Shown piece after piece: positions 43,601 to 47,687 of a stretch of 64,000 nucleotides of DNA. This DNA is from Mycolicibacterium cosmeticum (GTDB taxonomy: Bacteria; Actinomycetota; Actinomycetes; Mycobacteriales; Mycobacteriaceae). The first letter of the stretch is position 1, and the number at the start of each line of letters is the position of its first letter. The position numbers and the translations under genes were made by a program. The stretch lies in contig NZ_CCBB010000003.1 of the NCBI RefSeq assembly GCF_000613185.1, positions 2,294,001 to 2,358,000 of the forward strand. Reading direction: 5' to 3'. The notes under the pieces are model-generated. The model saw only the letters and a program-made list of their open reading frames with translations, ran no database searches and had not been told where the DNA came from.

Positions 43601-43714
43601 GCCGGAAAGCCTGCGACCAGCGGCTTGGCGCTTTCTTGGGGCGTCCGGTGATCCGGCGGAAATTTTTTTCCGAAGGTGTGTAACACCCGCCGGAGCCGCG
43701 TCGATACACCGGAT

Positions 43715-43774
43715 AGCTCCGTGTTGCCGTCTGACCCCCCGACCCGACGGCAACACGGGGCTCTTTTGGTTTTC
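43715..43774 (+). terminator. Strong stem-loop with T-rich tail
   Basis: The arms 43715-43731 and 43746-43762 pair over 17 bases with a single mismatch, the perfect part being CCGTGTTGCCGTC with GACGGCAACACGG; the loop is 14 bases. CTTTTGGTTTT follows on the plus strand, so it reads as a plus-strand intrinsic terminator. No plus-strand gene ends nearby except fadA2, 780 bases upstream. The remaining region 43601-43714 holds a small GGTGT-GTA-ACACC dyad (43675-43687) and an A/T tract, perhaps promoter elements of the MPT64-family gene. Confidence 0.55.
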
Positions 43775-44944: not shown

Positions 44945-45853
44945 ATGCAGATCAGCCTCATCGGATCGTTGAGCGGTGGCGGTTCGCCGGTCGACGCCAC
45001 CGTGGACTTCCTGGCCCAGGCCCGCGACGAGGGTTTCCGGCGCGTCTGGATGACCCAGATGCCTTATGAGCCAGACCTTCTCACCGTGCTGGCGGTCGCA
45101 CTGCGGGAGGTGGACGGCATCGAGGTGGGTACCGGTGTGGTTCCCATCCAGAACCTGCATCCGATGCTGATGGCCCAACGTGCGCTGACCGTGAACCTGA
45201 TCGCCGGTGGACGGTTCATCCTCGGGCTGGGCATGACGCACGCCGCCGTCACCGAGGGCATGTGGGGCATCCCGTGGGACAAGCCGGTGCGCCGTCTCAA
45301 CGAGTACCTCGACGGGTTGCTGCCGCTGCTGGCCGGTGAGCCGGCGGACGCGACGGGCGAGACCGTCACCACCCGCGGCGCGGTGCAGATCCCGGGCGCG
45401 CCACGCCCCGACGTCTATATCGCCGCGCTGGGACCGCAGTTGCTCAAGATCGCCGGCCGGCGCACCGCCGGCACCGTGACGTGGATGACCGGACCGAAGA
45501 CCCTCGGCGGTCACGTCGGGCCCGCGTTGCGGGCCGCGGCGGGCGACCGGCCGGTGCGGGTGGTCGCCGCGCTGCCGGTGGCCGTCACCGACGACGTCGA
45601 CGGAGCCCGGGCGCAGGCCGCCGAGCAGTTCGCGATGTACGGCCACCTGCCGTCGTACCGGGCGATGCTGGAACGCGAGGGGTACGCCGGTCCGGCCGAC
45701 GCCGCCCTGATCGGCGACGAGGCGACGGTCACCGCCCGCGTCGAGGAGCTGCGCGCCGCCGGCGTCGACGAGTACGTCGGCGTGCCCTTCGATGCATCGC
45801 CCGAGGTCAGGGCCCGTACCAGGGCCCTGCTGCGGACGCTGGATTCGGACTGA
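44945..45853 (+). CDS. LLM-class F420-dependent oxidoreductase
   Basis: A 302-residue luciferase-like (beta/alpha)8 protein. IGTG-type segments are seen as DGIEVGTGVVPIQNLHPMLMAQRALTVNLIAGGRFILGLGMTH, where RFILGLG and the H/PMLMAQRA stretch mark F420-dependent actinobacterial members. The C-terminal AAGVDEYVGVPFDAS is also typical. It would reduce or oxidise an unknown substrate with F420H2/F420. ATG 44945 has AGGAG 6 bases upstream. A CRP-like site begins 12 bases after its stop, so it ends a transcript and a new one starts. Confidence 0.82.
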   Translation: MQISLIGSLSGGGSPVDATVDFLAQARDEGFRRVWMTQMPYEPDLLTVLAVALREVDGIEVGTGVVPIQNLHPMLMAQRALTVNLIAGGRFILGLGMTHAAVTEGMWGIPWDKPVRRLNEYLDGLLPLLAGEPADATGETVTTRGAVQIPGAPRPDVYIAALGPQLLKIAGRRTAGTVTWMTGPKTLGGHVGPALRAAAGDRPVRVVAALPVAVTDDVDGARAQAAEQFAMYGHLPSYRAMLEREGYAGPADAALIGDEATVTARVEELRAAGVDEYVGVPFDASPEVRARTRALLRTLDSD

Positions 45854-45864
45854 AAAAGCTCTGG

Positions 45865-45880
45865 TGTGATCTTGATCACA
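45865..45880. promoter_or_regulatory. CRP-type site
   Basis: TGTGATCTTGATCACA is a perfect match to the CRP consensus TGTGA-N6-TCACA, with 7-base arms. It lies just after the oxidoreductase stop and upstream of the structured RNA candidate and the ClgR-like gene. A possible -10 element (TACTGT, 45885-45890) is close, so the site might repress; if transcription starts further down it could activate. Confidence 0.7.
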
Positions 45881-45896
45881 GGTGTACTGTCGACCG

Positions 45897-46018
45897 CACG
45901 ACGGGTTCGGGAAGTGACAGATCCAAAGAGCCGGAACAGAGGAGAAGATCCGGCCGCGTGCCATACCGCAAGGTAAAGAAGACGCCCCTCAAGTGTCCTT
46001 CCCGAACCCGCCCATTTT
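45897..46018 (+). ncRNA. Candidate structured RNA (small RNA or leader) downstream of a CRP site
   Basis: The outer helix pairs CGGGTTCGGGAAG (45902-45914) with CTTCCCGAACCCG (45998-46010), 13 perfect pairs. After one bulged T it continues with GACA (45916-45919) and TGTC (45994-45997), giving 17 pairs. Inside are two hairpins: GCCGGA/TCCGGC (45930-45935 and 45949-45954) with a purine-rich loop containing GAGGAGAAG, and TACC-GCAA-GGTA (45964-45975), a GNRA-type tetraloop. CCCATTTTTG follows the outer helix. This three-way junction is too regular for chance in such a short stretch. No known mycobacterial RNA was recognised. It may be a free small RNA or the 5' leader of the downstream regulator gene. 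Confidence 0.5.
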
Positions 46019-46073
46019 TGTGCTCATGGTGAACACGCCCGCACGCCGCCGCGATAACGGCGAGGATGCTGAC

Positions 46074-46409
46074 ATGGGCGAGGTCATTCGTATCCATCCC
46101 GGTATCCACCCTCACCGGCGCGCACCGGAGCCGCTGGAACCACTGTGGCGCGAGGCGCTGGGCCGTCGTCTGCGGGCCACCCGCCAGCGCCAAGAGCAGC
46201 GCCTGGTCGACGTGGCCGAGCGGGCCGGCGTGTCACCTCAGTACCTCTCCGAGATCGAGCGGGGCCGCAAGGAGCCGTCCAGCGAGATGATCGCCGCGGT
46301 GTGCGGGGCGCTGGGCACCGATCTGGTGCGCCTGCTCGGCGGCATCTCGGCCGACCTCAGCCGTCCCGCAGGGCGTCCGGCGTCCGGCCCGATGTTGTTG
46401 GCGGCCTAG
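46074..46409 (+). CDS. XRE-family regulator, ClgR/PopR-like
   Basis: A 111-residue protein from ATG 46074; in-frame starts at 46026 and 45993 exist. The HTH covers [45 protein letters not shown] in outline, closely matching the ClgR-type helix-turn-helix ([15 protein letters not shown]). ClgR and Streptomyces PopR activate clp protease genes. The protein ends in MLLAA, and C-terminal Ala-Ala is the degradation signal by which ClpP1P2 removes ClgR and PopR. Its gene is tail-to-tail (4-base overlap) with two clpP genes, so it is very likely their regulator, stabilised when ClpP1P2 is impaired. Confidence 0.8.
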
Positions 46410-46999
46410 CCGTTCCGCTGGTCGAGCACCCGGTCGGCCAGACCGTAGGCCACCGCCGCCTCGGCGTCGAAGACGCGATCCCGGTCGGTGTCGTGCCGCA
46501 GTTGCTCGGTGCTGCGCCCGGTGTGCCGGGCCAGGATGTTCTCCAGTTGATTGCGCACCCGCGCCACCTCGTCGGCCTGCAGGATCAGGTCGGGGATGGT
46601 GCCGCGGCCCTGTGCGGCGGGCTGGTGCAGCACCACCCTGGTGTGCGGCAGCACCGATCGCCTGCCCGGTGCGCCGGCGGCCAGCAGCACCGCGCCCGCC
46701 GCGACGGCCTGACCGATGCACGTCGTCGCGACCGGTGCCTTGATGAAGCGCATGGTGTCGTACACCGCCAGCATGGCCGACAGGTCCCCACCCTCGGAGT
46801 TGATGTACAGCGCGATCTCCTGCTCGGGGTTGTCGGCCTCCAGATGCAGCAGCTGCGCGATGAGCGCGTTGGCGACACCCGGATCGATCGCGGTGCCCAG
46901 GTAGACGATGCGCTCGCTGAGCAGGTGCGAGTACACGTCCATGATGCGCTCGCCACCGGTGGTGCGGGTGATGACGTTGGGGATGGTGTAGGTGCTCAT
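46406..46999 (-). CDS. ClpP-family subunit lacking the catalytic serine
   Basis: A 197-residue ClpP homologue with the normal fold: [49 protein letters not shown] and [17 protein letters not shown]. The active-site segment reads [11 protein letters not shown] where active ClpPs have GQAASMGA, so the nucleophile position is A100. H125 and D174 of the triad remain. It should be a structural subunit, comparable to plastid/cyanobacterial ClpR, mixing with the catalytic paralogue encoded 28 bases upstream. ATG 46999 gives a typical length. The housekeeping clpP1P2 pair is expected elsewhere in the genome. Confidence 0.88.
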
Positions 47000-47027: not shown

Positions 47028-47627
47028 TCATGCGTGAATTCCCAACTGTTGCTTGCGATTCGGCGTGATCTGCGCGAAGTCCTCGACGACGTGGTCGATG
47101 AATCCGTACTCACGCGCCTGCTCGGCGGTGAACCAGCGGTCGTGCAGCGAGTCGGTGAAGATGCGCTCGAGGTCTTGGCCGGTGTCGGCGGCGATCAGGC
47201 CGAGCACGGTGTCGCGGGTGTGCCGCAGATCGTCGGCCTGCACCTCCACCTCGACGGCCGAGCCGGCGATGCCCGCCGAGCCCTGGTGCATCAGGATGCG
47301 GGCGTGCGGCAGTGCGAAGCGCTTCCCGGGCGTGCCCGACGACAGTAGGAATTGCCCTGCGCTGCAGGCCAACCCGAGGGCCAGCGTGCCGACCTCGGCG
47401 GGCACCAGCCGGATCACGTCCCTGATGGCCAGCATGGCGGGCACCGAACCGCCGGGGGAGTGGATCCACAACCAGATGTCGTCGCTGGAATCGGCGGCCA
47501 GGGTGAGGAACTGGGTGACCAGGACGGTGCCGTTGTCGTCGTCGAGTGCCCCGTCGAGCACCACGACGCGCTTGCGGAACAGGTCTTCGCGTAATTGCCG
47601 GCTGAACAAGGGTGGTTTCTCGGACAT
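47028..47627 (-). CDS. ATP-dependent Clp protease proteolytic subunit (accessory ClpP)
   Basis: A 199-residue ClpP with a full triad: S89 in [12 protein letters not shown]114 in [10 protein letters not shown] and D163 in [34 protein letters not shown] is the oxyanion/GG segment. It differs clearly from mycobacterial ClpP1 and ClpP2, so it is an accessory paralogue like Streptomyces ClpP3/ClpP4. ATG 47627 was chosen; the longer frame runs into the palindromic repeat. It is first in a two-gene operon with the serine-less subunit and probably forms mixed rings with it. The ClgR/PopR-like gene downstream suggests induction when the main protease fails. Confidence 0.9.
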
Positions 47628-47687
47628 GCCTCGACCTTGCCGCCTGACGCGCCTGTCGCCCAGCCCACGCTGCTCTGAGCAGAACCC

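Follow-up and report, generated by a model that had tools for sequence, protein, structure and literature searches.

The 64,000-nucleotide stretch of Mycolicibacterium cosmeticum DNA analysed here (contig NZ_CCBB010000003.1; hereafter the window) contains a CRP site followed by a structured RNA. We consider it somewhat probable that this RNA is a conserved, trans-acting mycobacterial small RNA (sRNA) of the Ms_IGR-2/Mcr11 kind, controlled by CRP and domesticated from an RNA carried by IS110 insertion sequences (IS). The more specific proposal is that Mcr11 and Ms_IGR-2 are one sRNA, domesticated from the second, antisense RNA of an IS110 clade, and that the lineage of the window added CRP control between the -35 and -10 elements. 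On this proposal our judgement is evenly balanced. That the window RNA is real and has known kin is very probable. The locus consists of the following features, in positions of the window:

45859..45864 (+): -35-like element CTCTGG, role predicted
45865..45880 (+): CRP site TGTGATCTTGATCACA, a perfect palindrome centred at about -25 from the predicted start, between -35 and -10
45885..45890 (+): -10 element TACTGT (TACGAT/TACAGT in relatives), with a predicted start of transcription
45898..46020 (+): predicted sRNA of the Ms_IGR-2/Mcr11 type, about 123 nt (Rfam RF02467 and RF02341, own model R1)
45902..45919 (+): 5' strand of helix P1, 13 + 4 pairs, T45915 bulged (fold, covariation)
45920..45929 (+): unpaired junction GATCCAAAGA, conserved in the alignments; candidate seed or protein site
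45930..45954 (+): P2 hairpin (GCCGGA/TCCGGC) with loop ACAGAGGAGAAGA (fold, covariation)
45939..45942 (+): 5' strand of a pseudoknot, GAGG, within the purine loop of P2
45956..45985 (+): P3 arm (GCGT/ACGC) with a GCAA-capped hairpin at 45964-45975 (fold, covariation)
45987..45990 (+): 3' strand of the pseudoknot, CCTC
45994..46010 (+): 3' strand of P1 (fold, covariation)
46013..46020 (+): T-run CATTTTTG following P1, a probable terminator whose loop would be the entire RNA

The region 45895-46025 was folded and compared with shuffled sequences. The minimum free energy was -53.7 kcal/mol against a shuffle mean of -35.4 (z -5.1), and none of 200 shuffles folded as low. The three-way junction described in an earlier, sequence-only reading of this DNA was located as described, in folds of 45895-46025 and 45898-46020: an outer helix P1 of 17 pairs (45902-45914 and 45916-45919 with 45994-46010) with the single bulge T45915, a hairpin with a purine-rich loop, a GCAA tetraloop and, 3' of the folded region, CCCATTTTTG. 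The minus strand folds equally well (z -5.2), which speaks against calling the strand by energy. The plus strand was therefore chosen for its -10 element, its T-run and the conserved family. Ends of the sRNA are approximate, as they were taken from the -10 element and the T-run. Termination would occur at this T-run after P1. A consensus scan of the region, with a terminator rule limited to loops of 3-8, detected neither a sigma-70 promoter nor a terminator.

The sequence-only reading had recognised no known mycobacterial RNA here, which has to be corrected. With cmscan, RF02467 (Ms_IGR-2) matched 45872-45948 over model positions 1-82 with 47.3 bits, above its cutoff of 45. RF02341 (ncrMT1302) matched 45912-46019 over its full-length model with 40.7 bits (E 1.4e-5), just under its cutoff of 45, and the window RNA is therefore kin of that family and not a member. 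No other Rfam RNA, 6C and F6 included, matched 45898-46020 at E<=1. The two families have no clan in the cmscan tables, yet their matches overlap in many genomes. Ms_IGR-2 is described in passages of PMC10454040 as an M. smegmatis sRNA that overlaps ncMSMEG10373B and was detected by RNA-seq, having earlier been seen by northern blot. Passages of PMC4109619 and PMC8628891 locate ncrMT1302 between a cyclase gene and the gene next to it (MT1302 and MT1303), and from this position it is taken to be Mcr11 (MTS0997). For Mcr11, regulation of lipB, fadA3 and Rv3282 in trans is reported (PMC8628891, in part).

The window RNA shares with Ms_IGR-2 the Rfam match over cutoff and, as in most relatives, the luciferase-like (LLM) gene as neighbour. 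It differs in that the Rfam model spans only the promoter and the 5' part, in that a perfect CRP palindrome stands where the RF02467 consensus has cUGAGGGGUACCCgA, and in the GCAA-capped hairpin of its P3 arm. With Mcr11 it shares the full-length RF02341 alignment, membership of one clade and a link to cyclic AMP (cAMP), which is made by different means. In contrast to Mcr11, it scores under the RF02341 cutoff, has no cyclase or AbmR-like neighbour and carries a CRP-type promoter.

Covariation in relatives, which had been suggested as a check, was analysed in two alignments. The first, A3, comprised 100 loci (4 with a transposase match) with 96 distinct rows. In it 97.2% of cells were paired and 13 of 21 pairs showed two-sided changes, amounting to 184 such cells against 62 in shuffles. 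The second, A4, was drawn from loci outside the family; its 41 distinct rows gave two-sided changes at 12/21 pairs (80 cells against 21 in shuffles). Thus the helices covary in both alignments. Together with the shuffle test this rules out a chance fold, and it bears out the earlier suggestion of a real structured RNA, which also matches Rfam families. An origin of the helices in transposase coding constraint was likewise rejected, since the pairs covary in A3, where only 4/100 loci have a transposase match.

Across the family the P2 loop pairs with the strand directly 3' of P3, forming a pseudoknot. Pairings included GGGG/CCCC, GAGG/CCTC, CGGGG/CCCCG, TGCGGG/CCCGCA, GAGT/ACTC and others. At least four consecutive Watson-Crick pairs were found in 138 of 176 distinct RNAs, while partner shuffles averaged 91 and never exceeded 102. 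Against the pseudoknot, 38/176 RNAs remained under four such pairs (36 with three, two with two). When the 3' segment was reversed, 105/176 still reached four pairs, so G/C-rich composition accounts for part of the signal. The window RNA combines covarying P1, P2 and P3 with the loop-to-3' pseudoknot (GAGG/CCTC) and scores 85.7 bits with R1. The purine loop had been proposed as a free seed for C/U-rich targets. This is probably not the case, as the loop pairs with a C-rich strand in the covarying pseudoknot. The molecule would thus have two arms on a long outer stem, with the purine loop hidden by its pairing in the pseudoknot. Contacts with mRNA targets or a protein would most likely be made by the conserved, unpaired GAUCCAAAGA, in trans, as reported for Mcr11, from which a trans function of the window RNA is borrowed by analogy.

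The perfect CRP site that had been noted just upstream of the structured region is present at 45865-45880. It is the only exact TGTGA-N6-TCACA match in the window. Allowing one mismatch, the pattern occurs twice against 1.1 expected, and since 30/100 shuffles reach two, the count alone is at chance level. Conservation among relatives, unlike the window count, exceeds chance. With at most two mismatches the site was found at 26/52 IGR-2-type loci, perfect in 10 of them, and at 23/52 it occupied exactly the position seen in the window, compared with 0.9 in shuffled upstream sequence. In an exact-pattern search of 52 named loci, 24 had a CRP site with at most one mismatch, all at the same place. 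The palindrome is thus kept at a fixed place in relatives, as in a CRP-regulated promoter. None of 55 Mcr11-type loci had a site with up to two mismatches. The -35-like element CTCTGG also occurs in many IGR-2-type loci that have no CRP site. Transcription would start near 45898, with the CRP site wedged between -35 and -10, and its fixed place there suggests that cAMP-CRP blocks RNA polymerase and so represses the predicted sRNA promoter.

Next, the distribution within Mycobacterium was analysed in 148 genomes at E<=0.001. RF02341 matched 84 of them and RF02467 matched 52. Sorted by locus, from promoter, matches and neighbours, there were 55 Mcr11-type and 52 IGR-2-type genomes (107/148 together) and none with both types. 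Under independence about 19 shared genomes would be expected, a value uncorrected for kinship. In searches of more than 40 genomes at a time, few candidates were scored per genome (9-28), so that absences carry limited weight; genomes also recur from one search to another. Mcr11-type loci had a cyclase gene in 53/55 and an AbmR-like gene in 45/55 cases, the latter label coming from position and reviews for a protein with no Pfam match. Neither gene was found at any of the 52 IGR-2-type loci, the window's own included. These had the LLM gene in 40/52 cases, and in 39/52 of the named loci, on either side of the RNA; the window shows this LLM neighbourhood too. In a tree of 175 RNAs over 100 columns, Mcr11 and IGR-2 formed one clade (Shimodaira-Hasegawa approximate likelihood ratio test, SH-aLRT, 90) with an IGR-2 subclade (SH-aLRT 99), in both cases bar the row L185. 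Because both types join in one clade of this short-sequence tree and never co-occur, they are probably a single gene, most likely relocated between two chromosomal sites.

Some copies need a comment. Locus L239 gave the impression of being unlike the rest and was left out of the tree, while it was counted elsewhere. L120, with its inverted body, was kept in the counts, as were the decayed L065 and L072. Among the 52 named loci, L243 from an Acidobacteriota metagenome-assembled genome is probably a chance match. In L065 and L072, from the 3.3-Mb genomes G115 and G075, the Mcr11-type RNA scores about 31 bits and seems decayed; the match in L072 is limited to model positions 16-89. In L120 (2440-2600) the RNA body between the P1 arms seems inverted relative to the CRP-type promoter, either because it flipped across the P1 repeat or because the assembly is wrong.

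Outside Mycobacterium the same RNA was found inside IS110 elements. We searched with R1, a model built from 44 RNAs. It matched once in the window's genome, in 58/401 family genomes (7/31 genera, E<=0.001) and in 47/296 genomes of the class (21/114 genera, E<=0.01), of which 32 lay outside the family. Weak or truncated places outside the family in G569, G582 and G618 were not taken into the locus set. Outside the family, 33/40 loci had an IS110 transposase on the opposite strand, converging on the RNA. The same arrangement was seen at 13/19 non-Mycobacterium loci of the family. Over all searched loci a transposase match was found at 54/200, with few among the remaining loci (at most 160), which are mostly stand-alone Mycobacterium copies. 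Two representatives carried Pfam PF01548 and PF02371, identifying the transposase as IS110. In the window's genome no such transposase was detected (E<=1e-20). The C-terminal part of the transposase ends near the 3' side of the RNA, which is antisense to the transposase 3' end, and the tail motifs of the protein can be read antisense from the RNA. Among the best 120 of 7996 homologues, 119 had at least one of three tail motifs in the last 80 residues and 12 had all three. In most of the pairs that were compared, the shared DNA starts 46-62 bases before the RNA. In L156, L157 and L167 it extends to about 1360 after the RNA, and the flanks differ. Other pairs share less, and L182/L183 have flanks in common too. 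A shared unit with ends and differing flanks indicates that the RNA is part of the IS110 element.

In 30 transposase loci searched with R1 (E<=0.01), the RNA was detected at 11 of the 16 with at least 45% identity to the query. The five misses were partial query matches ending at residues 283-353 of 416. At the 14 loci with 41% identity or less no RNA was found. Four of five plasmid copies chosen from 20 listed carried it (Nocardia, two Rhodococcus, Frondihabitans), and in the fifth, from Streptomyces atratus, it was not found. As R1 had been trained on IS-type and class C copies as well, a second model, R2, was built from 32 Mcr11- and IGR-2-type rows. R2 matched all 73 loci given, which had been picked with R1 and included the doubtful L239. 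Tested on five IS110 copies, RF02341 gave 46.3 bits (cutoff 45) for L180 and 44.1 for L200. Homology of the Mcr11, IGR-2 and IS110 RNAs is on these comparisons well supported.

The copies that we assigned to class C (L171-L179) mostly lie behind a palindromic TACTAGTAGTA-like promoter. Some are near TniQ, IS481 or WXG100-type/nuclease genes, with no common context, and none of the nine had an IS110 remnant at E<=1e-3. Class C copy L173 had no match in the plasmid collection. A phage origin was discarded, as the window RNA had no match in the phage collection.

Several observations weigh against descent from an IS110-borne RNA under later CRP control. RF02341 stays under its cutoff in the window, and it misses three of the five IS110 copies (L167, L222, L322) at E<=0.1. 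Half of the IGR-2 loci have no CRP site, including those with a promoter like the RF02467 consensus, and the promoters of Mcr11 and IGR-2 are unlike each other. With the Rfam models, 41/148 Mycobacterium genomes have neither type. The tree is short (100 columns) with many unresolved forks. L185, an IGR-2-like row, groups with the IS copies, and two IS copies and class C rows stand weakly beside the chromosomal clade. Non-Mycobacterium copies had no transposase match at 7/40 and 6/19 loci; three of the seven (L201, L212, L238) have short remnants.

Homology by itself carries no direction, and an IS110 element could have taken up a host sRNA gene together with its promoter at the right end and then carried it into other actinobacteria. 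That two IS copies and class C rows adjoin the chromosomal clade is in keeping with such a capture. However, in several families the RNA keeps its place next to transposases whose identity to the two queries goes down to about 43%, and copies with conserved chromosomal neighbours (the cyclase and LLM genes) were seen only in Mycobacterium. We regard capture as unlikely, though it is the most serious of the alternatives. Under domestication, the RNA family would be older than the mycobacterial gene, as part of an IS110 clade in several actinobacterial families. The IS110 copy, encoded at the right end and antisense to the transposase, may restrain that enzyme, and mycobacteria would have adopted one such RNA as a host regulator.

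The genes around the RNA in the window are:

44945..45853 (+): LLM oxidoreductase, Pfam PF00296, the usual neighbour of IGR-2-type RNAs
46074..46409 (+): XRE/ClgR-like helix-turn-helix (HTH) gene, Pfam HTH_31, with an in-frame ATG also at 46026; a minority neighbour
46406-46999 and 47028-47630 (-): two tandem ClpP genes beside the ClgR-like HTH gene

The RNA had also been proposed as a riboregulatory leader of the ClgR-like gene, in which the terminator formed by P1 and the T-run would decide on read-through. The HTH gene of the window starts shortly after the T-run, at 46026 or 46074, and in the eight named loci that have the gene, the HTH match begins 174-222 nt after the RNA start. By tblastn, in which many loci came with about 1.5 kb of flank, HTH and ClpP genes followed the RNA at only 4/52 IGR-2-type loci. 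Among the named loci they were present at 8/52, including M. canariasense, M. neoaurum, M. bacteremicum and M. frederiksbergense. The window's genes are closest to those of M. canariasense and Mycolicibacterium sp. J2. The HTH and ClpP genes form an accessory Clp locus, which a minority of relatives have at this place, whereas the usual neighbour is the LLM gene. RNA and promoter mostly occur where the HTH gene is absent. A leader function as general role is thereby ruled out, and as an explanation of the window RNA we judge it quite improbable.

The left end of the IS110 elements has a conserved three-domain, bridge-RNA-like fold of its own in 22 sequences, with two-sided changes at 17/46 predicted pairs. 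Passages of PMC11208160 place the bridge RNA of the IS110 group in this left end. Our RNA resembles the bridge RNA/seekRNA in being structured and located within IS110 elements, and it differs in lying on the opposite strand at the other end. A bridge RNA would be expected in the left end for the IS110 group or in the right end for the IS1111 group, and would have target and donor loops. That it is itself the guide RNA and the chromosomal copies are relics is very improbable, because it runs antisense to the transposase and has a core conserved among copies, and because a separate left-end fold exists where the bridge RNA is reported. Some insertion sequences make antisense RNAs, such as RNA-OUT of IS10, which is antisense to the transposase gene. 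The IS110 RNA shares this orientation, but overlaps the transposase 3' end and not its start, has a conserved pseudoknotted fold and is also found where there is no transposase.

Among the sRNAs of the tuberculosis bacillus, Mcr11 is comparatively well characterised. In the portion consulted of a 2026 paper, MTS0997 is called restricted to highly pathogenic mycobacteria (PMC12840758). We found kin of Mcr11 throughout the genus, for example in M. aurum and M. vanbaalenii, and in transposons of several actinobacterial families. This unites two Rfam families that have no clan. It also suggests that IS110 elements, which attract wide interest as RNA-guided recombinases, carry a second RNA. The literature searched, consulted in part and with most subscription journals outside its coverage, contained no link of Mcr11 to IGR-2 or IS110, and the portion consulted of an M. 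neoaurum sRNA paper held no passage on the window RNA. Joining the two families is apparently new compared with the papers searched, and so are the pseudoknot, the link to IS110 and the CRP promoter found in one lineage.

The window also contains an F6 sRNA (RF01791) at 43710-43767 (+) with 71.7 bits. At another locus, L032, F6 lies 78 bases from an IGR-2-type RNA on the same strand.
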